23,154 nucleotides of DNA from Saprospiraceae bacterium (GTDB lineage: Bacteria; Bacteroidota; Bacteroidia; Chitinophagales; Saprospiraceae): assembly GCA_017995875.1 (NCBI GenBank), contig JAGOIB010000001.1, positions 32,915 through 56,068 of the forward strand. Direction: 5' to 3'. The translations under genes and the position numbers were made by a program. Positions 2,828-21,944 of the stretch are shown piece after piece (position 1 is the stretch's first letter; every line of letters starts with the position of its first letter). The notes beneath the pieces were generated by a model. It was not told the origin of the DNA. It searched no databases and worked only from the letters and a program-made list of their open reading frames with translations.

Positions 2828-4117
2828 ATGTTGATGACTACCGACACGCTCAATCAATCCAGGTTATTTATAGATTTAGAGGATAAGTATGGGGCCCATA
2901 ATTACCATCCTCTTCCGGTAGTCCTAACGAAGGGTGAGGGAGTATTCTTGTGGGATGTAGAGGGCAAGCGATACTATGATTTTCTGTCTGCATACAGTGC
3001 TGTCAATCAGGGCCATTGTCATCCCAGGATAATACAGGCTTTAATAGACCAGGCAAGCCAGTTGACACTTACCTCCCGTGCTTTTTACAATGACAAACTT
3101 GGCCCTTTTGAAAAGTACATCACCGAATATTTTGGTTATGACAAAGTCCTGGTTGCTAATTCAGGTGTTGAAGCAGTAGAAACAGCCATCAAACTATGCC
3201 GGAAATGGGCCTATGAAAGAAAAGGACTAACAGATCAAATGGCGAAGATTGTGTTTGTATCCGGTAATTTCCATGGCCGTACGCTCGGAGTTATTTCTGC
3301 TTCAACAGATCCAAGTAGTACAGGTGGGTTTGGGCCATACATGCCGGGGTATATTCTCGTGCCGTACAATGACAAAGCTGCCATCGAAGATGCTCTGCAA
3401 GATCCAAATGTTGCAGGAGTATTGTTAGAGCCTATTCAGGGAGAGGCAGGCGTTGTGGTTCCTGATGCAGATTACCTTCCATTCGTTCAGGCGAAATGTC
3501 GTGAGAAGAATGTCTTGTTTATAGTAGATGAAGTCCAGACTGGTATAGCCAGGACAGGCAAACTCCTGGCCACTTGTGGAAACTGTATGTGCAAAGGTTT
3601 TTGTGAAAATAAGCCGGAAGTCAAGCCCGATATTCTCATCCTTGGCAAGGCTTTATCTGGCGGTGTGTTACCGGTCTCAGCGGTTTTAGCTAACAATGAA
3701 ATCATGCTGTGTATCAAGCCTGGTGAACATGGATCTACATTTGGAGGAAATCCTTTGGCCTGTGCGGTTGCTATGACAGCACTTGAGGTCATTAAGGATG
3801 AAAGGCTGGACGCCAGGGCATTAGCGCTTGGTATGATATTCCGGGAAAGGATGCAAAGGCTGGTTGATACTAATCCAATTGTATTACTGGTACGCGGAAA
3901 GGGCCTGTTGAATGCAATTGTCGTAGATGATGACGAAGATGGCCATCTTGCCTGGGATATTTGTGTGGCAATGGCGTCTAAAGGTCTATTGGCAAAACCA
4001 ACCCATGGCAATATTATTCGCTTTGCACCCCCTTTGGTCATCACGGAAGATCAGCTTCACGAATGCTGCGATATTATCGAAGAGGCTATTGGAAGCATAG
4101 GGCATAGTGAAAAGTGA
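2828..4117 (+). CDS. rocD: Ornithine aminotransferase (ornithine--oxo-acid transaminase)
   Basis: A fold-type I, class III PLP aminotransferase that moves the delta-amino group of ornithine to 2-oxoglutarate, giving glutamate semialdehyde. The N-terminal [15 protein letters not shown] block is characteristic of ornithine aminotransferase. Numbered from the upstream ATG at 2789, the PLP-ring aspartate is D247 (FIVDEVQTG) and the Schiff-base lysine is K287 ([11 protein letters not shown]). Start 2828 (430 residues; 2834 is also possible) was chosen because a promoter covers the first ATG and family similarity begins near [11 protein letters not shown]. Odd feature: between those two catalytic residues there is an insertion [10 protein letters not shown] (C263, C266, C268, C272) where the human enzyme, as I remember it, has only a short loop. 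The stop codon lies inside a heptamer array. Family confident; physiological direction not visible. Confidence 0.93.
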
Positions 4118-4161
4118 AAAGTGAAGAGTGAAGAGTGAAAAGTGAAAAGTGAAGAGTGAAA
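4106..4161 (+). repeat. Heptamer tandem array (AGTGAAR)x8 spanning the rocD stop codon
   Basis: Eight contiguous 7-bp units, AGTGAAA or AGTGAAG, run without interruption. The first two units encode the last residues S-E-K and the TGA of the ornithine aminotransferase gene. Every unit contains TGA on the plus strand, and since 7 is not a multiple of 3 all three plus frames are closed within 21 bp. The complementary strand (YTTCACT) has no stop codon in any frame, which creates a spurious minus ORF. Confidence 0.9.
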
Positions 4162-4211
4162 AATATCTAAGATAAATGCTCTCCACCAGGATGTTCAAAA
4201 AACAAAGCTTG

Positions 4212-4443
4212 TTGAATTACCAGGACCTCTAGGGCTTTGAAGACATTTTCTCTGTAGAAAATTTTGAATTGCCACGGCTTTCAAGTCATGGAATAAATGA
4301 TTGTGGAATCATATTGAATTTCCACGGCTTTCAAGCCGTGGAAAAGATGGTCTGTTAGAAAGTTTTGAATTGCCACAGCTTTCAAGCCGCGGAATAAATG
4401 ATAGTGGGATCATATTGAATTGCCAGGGCCTTCAGGCCGTGGG
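4212..4443. repeat. REP-like hairpin array, five units with two alternating spacers
   Basis: Five copies of a roughly 30-bp element begin at 4212 (degenerate), 4264, 4314, 4365 and 4415, about 50 bp apart. Each starts TTGAATT and continues into an inverted repeat. The best copy (4320-4343) has arms TTCCACGGCTT and AAGCCGTGGAA around TC. Two spacer types alternate: an AATAAATGATNGTGG-ATCATA type after the 4264 and 4365 units, and a TCTGTTAGAAAG-like type after the 4212 and 4314 units. The whole is therefore a 101-102-bp period holding two hairpins. This resembles bacterial REP/BIME elements. No REP-associated (RAYT) transposase gene lies in the window. Together with the heptamer array it fills the 4118-4431 gap, which has no gene. 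Confidence 0.85.
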
Positions 4444-8881: not shown

Positions 8882-9820
8882 ATGGTAAGCAGGAGAAGTA
8901 TAAGAGTTAAAGTGATGCAATTGCTGTATTCCCTGGATCGTGATGCCGGCGTAAGTCATCCTGAATTATTAAAGCGGTATGACAAAGCTGTCGATCTCGC
9001 CTTTGAAAGCCTCATGTTCAATTTGTATCTGATGATGGAAATCGCCCACCAGGCGGTTGCGGATCGTGATGCCCGTCATGCTAAATTGAGACCAGGTCCC
9101 GATGACCCTATCTGGAATGCCAAACTCTATGAAAATGAATTGATGCAGAGCCTTGCCCAAAACAAGGCCCTCAGATCCTATTTTGACAAGCGGTTTTTCA
9201 GTTCCCGCCTTGATCAGGAACTGCTTATGAAGATGTATAACACGTTTTCAAAAACGCCGGAATACAAAAAGTTTGTCTTCTCAGAAATTGATATCGCCGG
9301 TCATAGAGAGTATCTTCTTGATATTTACAGGGACCTTCGCAAAAATGAAATCTATGAAGAAATCGTGGATGATCAATATCCTTTCTGGCAGGAAGATAAG
9401 TCCCTCGTCATTGGTGCCTTTAAAAAGATAATCAAACAGCTTCCAGAGGCGAATGAACACTTCTTTGAAGAATATCTCCCTGACGACGATACGGTTATTG
9501 AATTTGGCCGAAGGTTGATTGCTGTTACGATGGAGGAAGCCCCGGAATTGGAAAAGTTAATTGAGCCTACTCTTAAAAATTGGGACATGGAACGGCTTGC
9601 TGTACTGGATGTCATCATCATCAAGATGGCATTGGTGGAGTTTCTCCATTTCCCAACCATCCCAACAAAAGTAACCCTGGATGAGTATGTAGATATCTCC
9701 AAGGAATACAGCACACCGAAGAGCAAGGATTTTGTCAATGGCATACTTGACAAACTCATGAAAACGCTACTGGAGGAGGGAAAAATCAAGAAAGAGGGTA
9801 GAGGTCTTTTAGAGGAATAA
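8882..9820 (+). CDS. nusB: Transcription antitermination factor NusB (long form)
   Basis: NusB binds boxA RNA with NusE (S10) and supports rRNA antitermination. The start MVSRRSIRVKVMQLLYSLD is the family's first helix. The C-terminal third (about 200-302) carries the conserved NusB core, including WDMERLAVLDVIIIKMALVEFL and the VTLDEYVDISKEYSTPKSKDFVNGILDK region, which I recognise in parts. At 312 residues it is more than twice the E. coli length, because about 120 residues are inserted between the first helix and the core; long NusB proteins are usual in Bacteroidota. An excellent promoter lies upstream, making it the first gene of its unit. A yajC gene often follows nusB in this phylum; here guaA follows after 71 bp. 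Confidence 0.94.
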   Translation: MVSRRSIRVKVMQLLYSLDRDAGVSHPELLKRYDKAVDLAFESLMFNLYLMMEIAHQAVADRDARHAKLRPGPDDPIWNAKLYENELMQSLAQNKALRSYFDKRFFSSRLDQELLMKMYNTFSKTPEYKKFVFSEIDIAGHREYLLDIYRDLRKNEIYEEIVDDQYPFWQEDKSLVIGAFKKIIKQLPEANEHFFEEYLPDDDTVIEFGRRLIAVTMEEAPELEKLIEPTLKNWDMERLAVLDVIIIKMALVEFLHFPTIPTKVTLDEYVDISKEYSTPKSKDFVNGILDKLMKTLLEEGKIKKEGRGLLEE

Positions 9821-15695: not shown

Positions 15696-18600
15696 TTAAT
15701 ATCCTGATTTAACCAGTTTCACCGGCCAGATATAATCACCAAACGAAATCGTGCCGATATATAAACCCGCTGCTTGTTTGCTTAGTTCAAATCTATCCTC
15801 TGCAGATAATGAAATTTGATTGAATACCATTTTGCCATTTGAATTATAGAGGGACAACGTGATATTTTTCTTAGCATAGATCCCCGGAATACTTCCATTG
15901 TTAAACACCTGGAAGTAAGCGTCATAATCTACAGGTTCAGTAGCAACTGTGCAATTCACATTGCCAGGTACAATCGAAGCAGAACAATCAGGATGGCCAT
16001 TATCTATTACAACAAATTCATATTCGGTATCATCAGAAGGAAATGGGCCTATCTGCACTGGAACATTGTCATAACTGAAGTTGCCGTAATTATTACCATT
16101 GCCCTGAACATGGAAGCCTTCATTTCCGGTATTTTGGAAATCAAAATCAAGTATAAAAAAGAAATTGCCAGCTGAATCACATTCCGTTAGCGTGTAGGTA
16201 AGATTTGCTATTTCACAACCGCCTGTGCCGCATGCAGGACCTGCAAATTCCTGTGCTGTGCAACATTCTGTATTGTCGCTTTCGCAAATGGTTACAATAT
16301 ACTGACCTGTTTCATTTGCAGGAAAGTGCGCAATTTCAATAGGGACTTGTTCAAAGGTGAAAAATCCCAAATACGTATCACCGGCATAGACATCAAATCC
16401 TCCGGTAGCTATATTCTGATATTCAAAATGCAGTATGGCCGGGAAGGTAGTGTCGGAGTTACACTCGAATGTATTTACTTCGATATTATAGATCACACAT
16501 TGATCCGTGCAGAATGGTGTTTCAAATGTGAAACTGGCACAGCAATCCGGAGCACCGGCTGCGCAAACAGTGACTGTTGTTTGTTCGCCTGGAAAATGTG
16601 GGAAATTCTCAATATGAATAAAATCAGGGTTGTTTTCATATTGCCCAACGAGCGAATCATTAGCATAGATCAATACTGAGTCTGAAGGAGTGCTGTAGGT
16701 ATCGAATACAAGGTCTAATACATAAGTTGAATCAGAAGTGCATTGTCCGGTTTCTGCAAAGAGCCCATAAATTTCACAAACGAATTCTTGTCCACAATCC
16801 AGTGTTTCAAACGTAAAGCTATCACAGCATTCTCCACTTCCCAATGCACATACCGTGATGGTGGTATGGCTTGTATTGTAAGCAGGGAAATTGGCAATAG
16901 TGAACCCGTCAGGATTGTGTGCGAAATGTGCTGAGTATCCTTCAGGGGTACTCACCACGATAGAATCTGATTGTAGGTTGAGCGTGGAATAATTAATAAA
17001 CAGCGTATAGGTTGAATCGCCATTACAATTCCCAGGATCGGCTACCAGGTCAAACAGCTGGCATGTTCCTCCGCCGTCACAGTTAGGTGTTTCAAATTCA
17101 TAGAAATCACAGCAATCACTTGCCCCGGTTGCACAAACCGATACGACTGTATGGTTAGCATCTATTACAGGAAAGTTATCGATCCAGAATCCAGCCTGGT
17201 TATTGACAAAGGTTCCTACCAGCTGATCGTTGGCATTAACGGTCACGGAATCCGAAGGCAGATTGTCTGCTACATACTGAATAAAAAGAGCGAAGGTCGA
17301 ATCCGTCTGACAATCACCAATGGTAGCAACAAGGTCATAGATATGACATGGGCCACCATTGTCGCAATTTGGCGTTACGTATTCAAATGCATCGCAACAG
17401 TCATTGTCACCGACTGCGCAGACTGTGATGACTGTAGTATCCGTTTCGTAAAGAGGAAAATGCTGGATTGTAATATTCTCAGCTGTGACAGGATATTGGC
17501 CGACATAGTTGCCATTACCTGTAACCACAACAGAATCAACAGAAAGATTTTGACTATTGAAATTGATGTGCAACACATAGGTGGAGTCTGAAGTGCAATC
17601 ACCTGTTTCGGCCACAAGATCCCAAATATTGCATTGACCAAATAAAGAACAATCCTGTGTATCAAAAGTGTAGGTATCACAGCAATCAGGTTGTCCCACT
17701 GCACAGACAGTCAGCACTGTTACATCAGTACCATAATCCGGGAATTGTGCTATCACAATATTGTTAGGAGTGACTTGGTATTGGCCTATATAATTGCCAT
17801 TCCCTGTAATGATGACGGAGTCAACGTCTAAATTTTGACTGTTAAATTCAAGGTTCAGGACATATGTTGAATCTGAATTACAATCTCCCGGTACCGCAAT
17901 CAGGTCCCAAATGTGGCATTGGCCGAAAAAGGAACAATCAGGGGTTTCGAAAGTGTAGGTGTCACAACAATCATCTGCGCCAACAGCACAAACGGTAAGT
18001 GTAGTCGTTGCGCTGTCCAAAACAGGGAAATGTTCAATATGAATAAAAGTAGGTTGTACAAGAAATTTTCCGATATAGACATTATTGCCCCAGATATTTA
18101 CGGAATCTGATGGTAAATTGTCATGATTGAAAACAACATCGAGTGCAAACGTTGAATCAGAATTGCAATCGCCTGTTTCGGCAATCAAGTCATAGATAAA
18201 GCATTGAGGTGTTTCACAATTGATCAATTCAATCACTACTTCATCGCAGCAATTATTAAGATCATTTGCACACACACCGAGCACAGCTGTTCCGGTACCT
18301 TCAGGTAAAGTTATGGTCAATGGAATATCCGCAATATTGTAGAAACCGATAAAGACACCATCCAGGAATACATCAACAGAATTTCCGGGAAGGTTTTCAT
18401 AAAAGAATTCAAGGGAAATATCAAACGTGGTGTCACTTGAACAGCCAAGGTTTGTAACACTGGCATCAAACACGTGACATGCACAGTCCGGAGCGGCAAA
18501 TGCAAGTGTAGCGCAGCATGCGGAGTTGTCGTTTTCGCAGACTGTAACTATATCAATTCCAGTACCGCTGGAAGGGAATTCCGCAATAGTCAATGGCAGA

Positions 18601-20210
18601 TCATTGTAGCTATAGTTGTCAAATAATTCACCGTTAATAAACAAATCGAAACCGACACCAGTAGTTCCCTGATTATCGAAATCAATTGTAGCAGTATAGG
18701 TATTGTTGCCACTGCAATCACCTGGTACGACGGTAAGGTTGGATAATTCACAAATCTGCCCGCAATTAATAAAACCGAGTTCTACGGCTTCAAAACACAA
18801 TTGGTTCACAAGGTCTGTAACGACAAATTCAAAAAACTGTGAGCCATCACCGGCAAAGGGTCCAATCTGAACAGGTAAATCTTCATAGGCGAAAGAGCCA
18901 TAATTATCACCATTTCCGGTTATTTCGAATCCTTCGGTGGACACATTCTGATGGTTAAAGTTTATTTCAACCATTATTTCATCCTGGGCATTACAAGGCA
19001 AGGGAGTAGCTGTAAGATTGTAGATTAAACAACCTGCACATAGCAGTGCTTCAAAAGGAACAGTTGCACAGCAACCGAGGTTTTCGTTATCACATACAGA
19101 AATTACATCTATAAAATCTCCTGATCCTTCAAAGGCAAGAATCGTGAGAGGCAACTCAGCATAGGAATAACTTCCATAATAGGCGGATTCAGAAAATACA
19201 GCGAAGCCGTTATCTCCAGCACCTTCTATATCCGCATTTAGCAGAAGTGAATATGCATCATTGCCATTGCAAAGCGTTGCGGTGGCATTTAATGCATTAA
19301 AATTGCAGGGTGGAGGACAGTTGTATACACCGAGTGTTGTTGTGTCGGAGCATGAACCGGATTCACTATCACTGACGATAAATTCCCAGGTGATATTGGA
19401 AGCGCCATTAAGCGGTCCTAAAGTAATAGGAAGTTCATTATAACCAAATGTTCCATACGTCAGATTATTACCAACTACATTGAAGCTATCAGATGGTGGA
19501 TTGTCATATCCGAAATTAAGGTGTACGACAAAGTTATTGCCGGTGCATTCAGGCTCAGCCGATACATTGAAAATTTCACAATTGTTAGGATTACAATCAA
19601 TAGCATCCAAAACAAATGTTTCACAACATCCATCATTGACATGATCACATACGGTCAGGACCATGGGCGCCGCACCATTTACTACCATGTAAGGAATGGT
19701 GATGGCTTCTTCTTGATATAACCATGTGTCTATTAATTCTCCATTCCAATCATACAAATCGAACGTCAGGCCTGTTGGATTTTGAACATCAAAATCAAAT
19801 GTGACAAGAGCTGATTGATTGCCCTGACAACCTAAAAAGGTGAGAACAAAATTGCTGATGGAACAGATGGGACCGCAATTGGCCGCAGGGATAGACACGA
19901 ATTGCTGACAAGCTGCATTTTCTACATCCCAGGCAATAAATTCATAGCTGGATTCATTATCGCCTAAAAAAGGTCCAACGGTAACAGGTAAATCTGAATA
20001 CAGATACGTGCCGTAAATAACGCCATTTCCTGCAAGTGTAAAGCCGGGACTTGTTGGATTAGTCACAGAAAGGTTGACGGATACATTAAAATAGTTTCCT
20101 TCACAAGGAAGAGCTACTGCGCTGACCTCCGTGATCTCGCAATCCTGGGCTTTAAGTCCCGGAAGTAATACATTCAGCATCAGGAGAGTGGAGAGGAAAA
20201 GTTTAGTCAT
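15696..20210 (-). CDS. Giant secreted Cys-rich repeat protein with T9SS type A sorting domain
   Basis: A protein of 1504 residues from ATG 20210; an in-frame TTG at 20234 adds eight and is the numbering used here. Residues 9-30 form a signal peptide ending LKAQ before Asp31. Residues 31-1429 are 15 repeats of 90-95 residues, each beginning with Cys near C-x-I-x-x-L and ending N/D-C. Residues 1430-1512 form a C-terminal T9SS type A sorting domain (GLYIGTI, then VKLVKSGY). Repeats 1, 3, 5 and 15 have four cysteines (C, C, C, NC). Repeats 2, 4 and 6-14 have six, with an extra VC and a vicinal CC, as in the VCAVGADDCCD type. The repeats contain one Lys (K723) and no Arg, so the secreted part is strongly acidic. 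It is predicted to be exported by Sec, moved out by T9SS and anchored or released at the surface. An adhesin or polyanionic surface role is inference; I recognise no catalytic domain. It is a single-gene unit. Confidence 0.9.
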   Translation of the reverse strand: MTKLFLSTLLMLNVLLPGLKAQDCEITEVSAVALPCEGNYFNVSVNLSVTNPTSPGFTLAGNGVIYGTYLYSDLPVTVGPFLGDNESSYEFIAWDVENAACQQFVSIPAANCGPICSISNFVLTFLGCQGNQSALVTFDFDVQNPTGLTFDLYDWNGELIDTWLYQEEAITIPYMVVNGAAPMVLTVCDHVNDGCCETFVLDAIDCNPNNCEIFNVSAEPECTGNNFVVHLNFGYDNPPSDSFNVVGNNLTYGTFGYNELPITLGPLNGASNITWEFIVSDSESGSCSDTTTLGVYNCPPPCNFNALNATATLCNGNDAYSLLLNADIEGAGDNGFAVFSESAYYGSYSYAELPLTILAFEGSGDFIDVISVCDNENLGCCATVPFEALLCAGCLIYNLTATPLPCNAQDEIMVEINFNHQNVSTEGFEITGNGDNYGSFAYEDLPVQIGPFAGDGSQFFEFVVTDLVNQLCFEAVELGFINCGQICELSNLTVVPGDCSGNNTYTATIDFDNQGTTGVGFDLFINGELFDNYSYNDLPLTIAEFPSSGTGIDIVTVCENDNSACCATLAFAAPDCACHVFDASVTNLGCSSDTTFDISLEFFYENLPGNSVDVFLDGVFIGFYNIADIPLTITLPEGTGTAVLGVCANDLNNCCDEVVIELINCETPQCFIYDLIAETGDCNSDSTFALDVVFNHDNLPSDSVNIWGNNVYIGKFLVQPTFIHIEHFPVLDSATTTLTVCAVGADDCCDTYTFETPDCSFFGQCHIWDLIAVPGDCNSDSTYVLNLEFNSQNLDVDSVIITGNGNYIGQYQVTPNNIVIAQFPDYGTDVTVLTVCAVGQPDCCDTYTFDTQDCSLFGQCNIWDLVAETGDCTSDSTYVLHINFNSQNLSVDSVVVTGNGNYVGQYPVTAENITIQHFPLYETDTTVITVCAVGDNDCCDAFEYVTPNCDNGGPCHIYDLVATIGDCQTDSTFALFIQYVADNLPSDSVTVNANDQLVGTFVNNQAGFWIDNFPVIDANHTVVSVCATGASDCCDFYEFETPNCDGGGTCQLFDLVADPGNCNGDSTYTLFINYSTLNLQSDSIVVSTPEGYSAHFAHNPDGFTIANFPAYNTSHTTITVCALGSGECCDSFTFETLDCGQEFVCEIYGLFAETGQCTSDSTYVLDLVFDTYSTPSDSVLIYANDSLVGQYENNPDFIHIENFPHFPGEQTTVTVCAAGAPDCCASFTFETPFCTDQCVIYNIEVNTFECNSDTTFPAILHFEYQNIATGGFDVYAGDTYLGFFTFEQVPIEIAHFPANETGQYIVTICESDNTECCTAQEFAGPACGTGGCEIANLTYTLTECDSAGNFFFILDFDFQNTGNEGFHVQGNGNNYGNFSYDNVPVQIGPFPSDDTEYEFVVIDNGHPDCSASIVPGNVNCTVATEPVDYDAYFQVFNNGSIPGIYAKKNITLSLYNSNGKMVFNQISLSAEDRFELSKQAAGLYIGTISFGDYIWPVKLVKSGY
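15948..20144 (-). repeat. Fifteen ~90-residue coding repeats, classes A (4 Cys) and B (6 Cys)
   Basis: Repeat starts (protein numbering from TTG 20234): 31, 123, 218, 310, 402, 494, 586, 678, 773, 868, 963, 1058, 1153, 1246 and 1340. Class order is A-B-A-B-A-B, then B eight times (586-1339; DNA 16218-18479), then A. Class A shares GNGxxYG, a Y-x-x-LPV-x-IGPF block, EF-x-V-x-D and a single mid-C-terminal Cys. Class B shares DSV or FDL, the FP turn, TVCA and CCD. Repeats 8-13 are the most alike, pointing to recent expansion there. Confidence 0.9.
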
Positions 20211-20231: not shown

Positions 20232-20239
20232 CAAATTTA
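20232..20239 (-). promoter_or_regulatory. Bacteroidota -7 element (TAAATTTG) for the T9SS repeat-protein gene
   Basis: TAAATTTG matches TAnnTTTG and ends 21 bases before the ATG at 20210. The upstream TTG codon (20232-20234) is part of this element, so it cannot be translated from this promoter; that supports ATG 20210 as start. No convincing -33 TTG at 19-20 bp was seen. Confidence 0.5.
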
Positions 20240-21305: not shown

Positions 21306-21799
21306 TTAAAATTGGATTGTTGTCAGATACACATGGTTTTCTTGATCCATCGCTTCTACCGGTATTGGAAGACTGCGATGAAATATGGCATGCAGGAGAT
21401 ATCGGTTCTTTAAAATTGGTAGATCAATTTCGAAAATTAAACAAGCCGCTGAAATTGGTTTATGGCAATATTGACGGACATGACATACGCATTGATATAC
21501 CGGAAGATCTGATCTGGACGTCGAATGGGATGAAAGTATTGATGACACACATAGGGGGCTATCCCGGACATTATACAGCAAGGGTGAAAAAAGTATTAAT
21601 GGATGAGCAGCCTGACATCTTTGTGTGTGGCCACTCTCATATTCTGAAAGTCATTTATGATAAGCAATTAAGCTTGCTACATATTAATCCGGGAGCTGCA
21701 GGTAAGGAAGGGTTTCAAAAAGTCCGTACGATGGTTCGATTCGTGATTGATAGTGGAAAAGTCAGGGATCTGGCGATCATTGAGATCGGTAAACAGTAG
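21302..21799 (+). CDS. YfcE/MJ0936-type metallophosphoesterase
   Basis: A 165-residue calcineurin-like phosphoesterase of the small YfcE/MJ0936 family, which hydrolyses phosphodiesters using two metal ions. Ligand motifs are in order: D9-T-H11, G-D33, G-N56-x-D, T-H83-x-G-G, and G-H111-S-H113 followed by INPGAAG. All expected metal ligands are present. Start ATG 21302 forms an ATGA junction with the preceding reductase and puts the first strand at residue 2; an in-frame ATG at 21281 would overlap the upstream gene by 25 bp. The stop TAG lies in a heptamer array. Natural substrate unknown. Confidence 0.92.
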   Translation: MIKIGLLSDTHGFLDPSLLPVLEDCDEIWHAGDIGSLKLVDQFRKLNKPLKLVYGNIDGHDIRIDIPEDLIWTSNGMKVLMTHIGGYPGHYTARVKKVLMDEQPDIFVCGHSHILKVIYDKQLSLLHINPGAAGKEGFQKVRTMVRFVIDSGKVRDLAIIEIGKQ

Positions 21800-21835
21800 G
21801 CAGTAGGCAGTCAGCAGTATTCAGTAGGCAGTCAT
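21794..21835 (+). repeat. Heptamer tandem array (CAGTAGG)x6, degenerate, starting at the phosphoesterase stop
   Basis: Six 7-bp units: CAGTAGG, CAGTAGG, CAGTCAG, CAGTATT, CAGTAGG, CAGTCAT. The first unit supplies the last codon (CAG, Gln) and the TAG stop of the phosphoesterase. Three of the six units contain TAG. The complementary CCTACTG unit has no stop in any frame. No hairpin terminator is seen in the gap that follows. Confidence 0.8.
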
Positions 21836-21880
21836 CTATAATAGATATCTGGTCACACTCAAACCCACTCACACACCTCT

Positions 21881-21944
21881 CACGTTCTCACGTTCTCACG
21901 TTCTCACGCTCTTACGTTCTTACTTTCTTACGTTCTCACGCTAT
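21881..21944 (-). repeat. Octamer tandem array (AGAACGTR)x8 spanning the stop of the Cys/Met enzyme gene
   Basis: Eight 8-bp units, YACGTTCT on the plus strand with a few substitutions, run from 21881 to 21944. On the minus strand, the sense strand of the neighbouring gene, each unit junction reads GTGAG or GTAAG and so keeps TGA or TAA despite the G/A change. The gene's own TGA (21936-21938) is one of these. The complementary strand is open in all frames. A less regular CACTC/CACAC stretch precedes it (21854-21880). Confidence 0.88.

Follow-up and report, generated by a model that had tools for sequence, protein, structure and literature searches.

Near-absence of lysine and arginine from the repeat region of a predicted T9SS cargo protein in Saprospiraceae

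Introduction

Among the described proteins closest to the one considered here are the extender regions of RTX adhesins, such as MhLap, AhLap, and MpIBP (structure 6xi3). RTX-adhesin extenders have been described as acidic and poor in positive residues, and those that are present as highly conserved (PMC7493085 section 3.1). Comparison can also be made with fibronectin type III (FnIII) arrays, with SprB-repeat T9SS surface proteins (PF13573), and with Cys-rich repeat proteins of Saprospiraceae and Lewinellaceae, for which there is no family model. Searches of the open-license literature for Lys/Arg-free bacterial surface proteins and for this Saprospiraceae family, covering titles and the openings of abstracts, found no description of the family among the matches listed.

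Here, we describe a protein encoded by a Saprospiraceae bacterium in a stretch of 23,154 nucleotides (contig JAGOIB010000001.1), which was analyzed as a whole and which we refer to as “the window”. Like RTX extenders, as the publication describes them, the window protein is predicted to consist of tandem acidic β-sandwiches with few Lys and Arg residues. Unlike RTX extenders, which depend on type I secretion, it has a predicted T9SS tail: profile searches gave no match to an RTX model, and in place of the C-terminal RTX repeats and T1SS signal of an RTX adhesin, there is a tail resembling a T9SS sorting domain. RTX extenders use calcium, whereas the window protein has four to six Cys residues per domain and almost no Lys or Arg. 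With FnIII arrays, it shares the modeled fold, but sequence identity is only 5–16% among the matches listed, and the Cys pattern is its own. With SprB-repeat proteins, it shares a predicted T9SS tail, and two examples from a related genome, G013, also have <1% Lys plus Arg (K+R); unlike those proteins, the window protein has no PF13573 match in a Pfam profile search. The repeats of the Cys-rich Saprospiraceae/Lewinellaceae proteins are homologous to those of the window protein, but 59 of 68 distant relatives have at least 1% K+R. By analogy, the window protein appears to be a more extreme variant of the acidic, positive-poor extender type, Cys-rich and using another secretion route.

The gene and its secretion signals

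The features that delimit the gene and its predicted export signals are as follows (window coordinates):

15696..20210, minus strand: coding sequence of a T9SS-type repeat protein, 1504 aa; ATG at 20210-20208, stop codon ending at 15696, start placed by the length of homologs
20148..20210, minus strand: signal peptide, M9-A29, from sequence; cleavage before Q30 predicted from the Bacteroidota Q-rule
20145..20147, minus strand: Q30, predicted mature N-terminus, likely pyroglutamate, from the ortholog column and the Q-rule
15699..15944, minus strand: C-terminal tail (residues 1431-1512) resembling a T9SS type A sorting domain, with ordinary K/R, from the TIGR04183 and Por_Secre_tail profiles

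The reading frame stays open upstream to a TTG at 20234, from which the protein would be 1512 aa long; residue numbers count from this TTG, making the ATG M9. The ATG is the likely start because homolog lengths cluster at 1504 aa, the length of 10 of the 17 close homologs in the 1490–1525 aa range. Under the Q-rule, a Gln directly after the signal-peptidase site in Bacteroidota is converted to pyroglutamate (PMC10653852). The Q30 column is Gln in 45 of 48 orthologs and a gap in the other three, and the protein thus shows the N-terminal arrangement expected of T9SS type A cargo, a signal peptide followed by a predicted mature Gln. The tail of the window copy scores just below the TIGR04183 cut-off (22.6 bits versus 23) and further below that of Por_Secre_tail (18.1 bits versus 27); the tails of the orthologs in G013 and in a second related genome, G119, exceed the TIGR04183 cut-off, at 27.8 and 23.2 bits. 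From these signals, the protein is predicted to be T9SS-secreted cargo.

Repeat anatomy and predicted fold

Between the two signals lie 15 tandem repeats of 91–95 aa each (residues 32-1430; window 15945..20141, minus strand), in agreement with the count made in an initial sequence-only reading of the window:

19866-20141, minus strand: repeat r1, 4 Cys
19581-19865, minus strand: repeat r2, 6 Cys
19308-19580, minus strand: repeat r3, 4 Cys
19032-19307, minus strand: repeat r4, 6 Cys
18753-19031, minus strand: repeat r5, 4 Cys
18480-18752, minus strand: repeat r6, 6 Cys
18204-18479, minus strand: repeat r7, 6 Cys
17919-18203, minus strand: repeat r8, 6 Cys
17634-17918, minus strand: repeat r9, 6 Cys
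17349-17633, minus strand: repeat r10, 6 Cys
17064-17348, minus strand: repeat r11, 6 Cys
16779-17063, minus strand: repeat r12, 6 Cys
16500-16778, minus strand: repeat r13, 6 Cys
16218-16499, minus strand: repeat r14, 6 Cys
15945-16217, minus strand: repeat r15, 4 Cys

Four of the Cys are nearly invariant, with the full set in 740 of 741 orthologous repeats. The other two, Cys72 and Cys80 of the repeat, come and go together: among the 741 orthologous repeats, 534 have both, 207 have neither, and none has one alone; among 885 repeats of distant relatives, the numbers are 663, 221, and 1 (repeats gapped at a Cys column are excluded, reducing 757 to 741 and 919 to 885). This co-occurrence indicates a predicted disulfide between Cys72 and Cys80 within the repeat. 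Linkers, measured between the final Cys of a repeat and the first Cys of its successor, span 1–5 residues.

AlphaFold models the repeats as fibronectin-III-like β-sandwiches (pLDDT 92.6 and 95.5), with the seven strands typical of the FnIII fold, and the best structural matches include FnIII arrays and the RTX-adhesin extender 6xi3. A Pfam profile search at E 0.1 returned two matches, neither of them fn3; a BetaGal_ABD2 match was set aside (14.3 bits versus a cut-off of 23). A sequence search of solved structures gave no matches at E 1.

Lysine and arginine are almost absent from the repeat region

The sequence-only reading had counted a single Lys and no Arg in residues 31-1429 (window 20144-15948, minus strand), and a scripted recount agrees. 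The one exception lies in repeat 8:

18066..18068, minus strand: K723, the sole Lys/Arg of residues 31-1429, from the scripted recount

The same residues include 114 Asp, 74 Glu, 21 His, and 82 Cys, giving a computed pI of 4.05 and a charge of about −186 at pH 7, so the mature region is indeed strongly negative, as had been proposed. Outside it, Lys/Arg content is ordinary, again as proposed, with seven K/R within the last 83 residues and two Lys in the signal peptide counted from M9. In silico, trypsin would leave fragments of the displayed chain 695 and 732 residues long, with no usable tryptic peptide, bearing out the expectation of no trypsin sites of note.

In 16 neighboring frames, K+R accounts for 640 of 5914 residues (10.8%). 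At that rate, the binomial probability of one or fewer K/R in 1399 residues has a log10 of about −67. Base composition does not account for the deficit: the expected K+R is 10.8% from the base composition of the gene and 6.4% from its codon-position composition, and a composition bias was rejected on these grounds. Economy of synthesis or of nitrogen fares no better. Secreted proteins are often cheap to make, but the region is also rich in Phe, Tyr, Cys, and Asn, and Phe, Tyr, and Cys are costly to synthesize. Synthesis cost was likewise rejected, and we regard economy or base composition, contradicted as they are by composition, as the least probable explanation of the depletion.

Depletion is shared by orthologs but not demanded by the fold

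We compared the protein with the best 120 of 207 homologs, drawn from 7,991 scored candidates. The orthologs (P0001-P0053; 53 including the window copy) form one clade with 44–97% identity. Their interior K+R ranges from 0 to 1.4% and is <1% in 49 of 53; thus, homologs with ordinary K/R content, which would have told against the sequence-only reading, do not occur among them. The 68 distant relatives (P0054-P0121) range from 0.09 to 7.2% K+R, with 9 below 1% and 59 at 1% or above. Depletion is not a requirement of the fold, since K+R rises to 7.2% (in P0090) among distant relatives built of the same repeats. With K and R masked, a FastTree tree of the 121 rows shows eight label changes at a 1% cut; long branches meet in it and letter make-up differs between rows, and the changes are not read as separate gains.

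Ortholog lengths cluster near 1312, 1410, 1504, 1598, and 1695 aa, in steps of about one repeat. Among orthologs P0002-P0053, the steps are ~94 residues, indicating that whole repeats are gained and lost, and alignment fill is most variable at repeats 9–11.

In a survey that scored at most two candidates per genome, 124 of 199 genomes from the family of G001 had a match to the repeat, and only G001, G013, and G119 had one at ortholog level. Around the G013 ortholog (L066), nine window genes are present in conserved order, with one additional small frame. The G119 ortholog is on a short contig, and the one neighbor present there matches the window. In a Lewinellaceae bin (L001; P0054, 37% identity, 0.69% K+R), seven window genes lie nearby. 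Elsewhere in the window, positions 8882-9820 encode a NusB-like protein with an N-terminal extension of ~180 residues, of the same length in L066 and L001. Intergenic repeats of ~50 bp with a palindrome, REP-like in look, lie at 4251-4442, and there are short tandem repeats at 4106-4162 (7 bp; overlapping the 3′ end of an ornithine aminotransferase frame), 21794-21834 (7 bp), and 21877-21942 (8 bp).

Purifying selection against lysine and arginine

Substitutions were inferred by parsimony from an alignment of 48 orthologs, which leaves out P0024, P0046, P0047, P0052, and P0053 (short or tail-less). In the mature region, 148 of 13,468 substitutions led to K/R (1.10%), versus 74 of 1,086 (6.8%) in the sorting tail and 23 of 378 (6.1%) in the signal region. 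Parsimony undercounts and the repeat alignment is imperfect, but the contrast within the same genes is still six-fold. In 34 K-richer relatives (those of 66 rows in P0056-P0121 with K+R of at least 2% and a length of 1300–1800), the figure was 501 of 10,552 (4.75%). Of the amino-acid changes reachable by one-base mutation from the codons of the window gene, 11.0% would be to K/R. Between the signal-peptidase site and the tail, the displayed chain is subject to strong purifying selection that targets both Lys and Arg. The proposal that selection acts on the exported part, rather than on genome composition, is thereby upheld.

What is being avoided: positive charge, protease sites, or competitors for cations

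Our leading reading, held tentatively, is that an extended surface stalk has been selected against fixed positive charge. The same reading ranks ahead of the alternatives below, from one of which, protection from proteases, it is not cleanly separated. Both Lys and Arg are excluded and His is not (0.18%, 0.22%, and 1.68%, respectively, in the orthologs' displayed region), as if positive charge were the target. Two further observations point the same way. The seven repeat columns richest in K/R among distant relatives carry 23.9% K/R there and 1.2% in orthologs, with Asp/Glu rising from 11.9% to 20.0%; and across the 68 distant relatives, K+R goes down as D+E goes up (rho −0.54), as though charge governed both. 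Within orthologs, tuning of net charge is unsupported: D+E per 1,400 residues ranges from 155 to 266 (sd 23, versus 4.7 for K+R) and varies independently of K+R (rho −0.08; n=48, the orthologs of at least 1300 aa, a set slightly different from the 48 of the alignment). This weighs against the leading reading; with net charge left to vary in orthologs, selection would be acting on positive charge itself.

The wide spread of acidic content also bears on the idea, raised in the sequence-only reading, that the protein is a polyanion for calcium, metal, or mineral binding, from which positive residues are excluded as competitors of cations. The low pI and large negative charge suit such a role, and similarly built RTX-adhesin extenders are reported to be stiffened by calcium in their linkers (PMC7493085). 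However, D+E varies from 10.7 to 20.0% across the 53 orthologs (13.3% in the window protein), linker cells are barely more acidic than the region as a whole (502 of 2954, or 17%, versus 15%), and most columns that never vary hold Cys, Gly, Pro, or aromatics, along with a few Asp and Glu. Cation binding thus found no specific support, and we consider it improbable.

A stronger alternative, also anticipated, is a protease-proof coat: K/R would have been shed since trypsin- or gingipain-like proteases, the organism's own or its neighbors', cut after them at the surface. We consider this possible but less likely than avoidance of positive charge. The two residues that such proteases require at P1 are both missing, whereas His, Asp, and Glu vary; a pyroglutamate-blocked Q30 and Cys-rich domains would both be protective; and 29 of 53 orthologs yield no internal tryptic peptide of 7–35 residues. 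A second peptidase C25 frame scores above cut-off in two of the three related genomes searched (G013 and G119); a trypsin model matches all three, but it also matches 11 of 14 control genomes. Other proteases would still find many sites in the window protein, which has 261 F/W/Y/L and 188 D/E.

The placement of losses within the fold was compared using strand labels from four repeats of one structure model, extended to all repeats. Removal of cleavage sites from loops would be expected to deplete loops more than strands. Taken raw and relative to 22 K-richer relatives, K/R has dropped 13.5-fold in strands and 7.7-fold in loops (ratio 1.76; CI 1.25–2.46, bootstrapped over proteins); relative to all 68 distant rows, the drop is 7.9-fold and 3.6-fold (ratio 2.21). 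Raw loss in strands at least equal to that in loops argues against proteases and looks as if position were indifferent, as expected for charge. Other yardsticks reverse or neutralize the comparison: with Glu, loops lose 32-fold and strands 19-fold (ratio 0.59; CI 0.39–0.82), in favor of proteases, while D+E and E+Q give neutral ratios of 1.24 (CI 0.91–1.75) and 1.21 (CI 0.92–1.65). Because the answer shifts with the yardstick, the strand-versus-loop comparison does not separate charge from protease avoidance. In distant relatives with at least 15 K/R, these residues are more frequent in strands than in loops in 52 of 53 proteins, but Glu in the K-richer rows likewise favors strands (5.0% versus 1.3% in loops), and this placement was dropped as evidence of protease-proofing.

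Residual basic positions

The basic residues that orthologs retain are unevenly placed. The K723 column is K/R in 12 of 48 orthologs. The commonest basic position of the displayed region is a column that is His in the window protein:

18039..18041, minus strand: H732, repeat 8; column Arg in 36 of 48 orthologs, from the ortholog alignment

Two other columns are basic in 18 orthologs each. Retention at these columns counts against a pure avoidance of positive charge; such a basic spot, conserved within a chain that otherwise lacks K/R, may be a binding site. Of the 261 residual K/R cells, 141 fall in repeats 3, 8, and 13.

The contexts of these residues are mixed with respect to proteases. Acids are in excess at P2′ (27.2% versus 16.4% in a polar background) and at P1′ (15.3% versus 10.4%), although a few recurrent contexts, e.g., FNRIE, weigh heavily in this excess; acids at P1′/P2′ slow trypsin. 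By contrast, Pro follows residual K/R in only 1 of 261 cases, versus 4.6% in the polar background, and K/R-Pro contexts were dropped as evidence of protease-proofing. Residual K/R in strands are not enriched for acid neighbors at i±2 (22.7% versus 28.6%, p 0.14); in-strand salt bridges were therefore dropped as an explanation, and the lack of acid neighbors also tells against avoidance of positive charge. Of the proposed protease-proof coat, then, the absence of trypsin sites stands, but as the cause of depletion it is not established, given the missing K/R-Pro contexts, the other sites that remain, and the dependence on yardstick.

Other T9SS cargo

T9SS cargo is overall poorer in K+R than the other frames of the window, with medians of 5.25% in G013 and 4.83% in G119 (samples of 30 cargo loci each). 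This general lowering fits a constraint of T9SS passage or of lipopolysaccharide attachment. However, among 37 long cargos of G013 (L068-L104; from 123 matches, those in open frames of at least ~900 codons, the ortholog counted apart), the median is 4.9%, 30 have 3.4–8.0%, and the G013 ortholog is lowest, at 0.34%. Such a constraint is very unlikely as the sole cause.

Two of the 37 have <1% K+R, both with SprB repeats. That another family behaves likewise is in line with avoidance of positive charge. Across the 37, however, K+R is lower where Cys is higher (rho −0.65) and shows no relation to D+E (rho −0.03), a pattern not expected from electrostatics. The two SprB-repeat T9SS proteins, L085 and L086, have ~0.5% K+R; L085 has a thioredoxin-like N-terminus, and L086 has a CxxCH motif near its start.

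Model and implications

Among the roles suggested at the outset, a stalk that avoids positive charge or basic partners fits best, and we infer the following model. T9SS would carry the chain to the cell surface, where the protein would be anchored as a stalk of 15 successive fibronectin-III-like β-sandwiches, probably with two or three disulfides holding each domain together. Lys and Arg would have been removed most likely as carriers of fixed positive charge. With no positive patches, the chain would avoid sticking to, or folding down onto, the anionic lipopolysaccharide and matrix of its own cell, and the stalk would thereby stay extended.

The protein is a clean natural case of the exclusion of a residue class, an exclusion maintained in orthologs with as little as 47% identity, and K-rich natural relatives of the same repeat are ready controls for asking why surface stalks lack positive charge. 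Given the size of its tryptic pieces, standard metaproteomics would miss the displayed part whatever its abundance. A broader proposal, which we regard as doubtful at present, is that several T9SS repeat-protein families (FnIII-like, SprB-repeat, and others) have separately shed Lys and Arg under a compartment-wide surface rule. If this is true, these bacteria would wear a coat nearly free of fixed positive charge and of primary amines, one that trypsin proteomics systematically misses.
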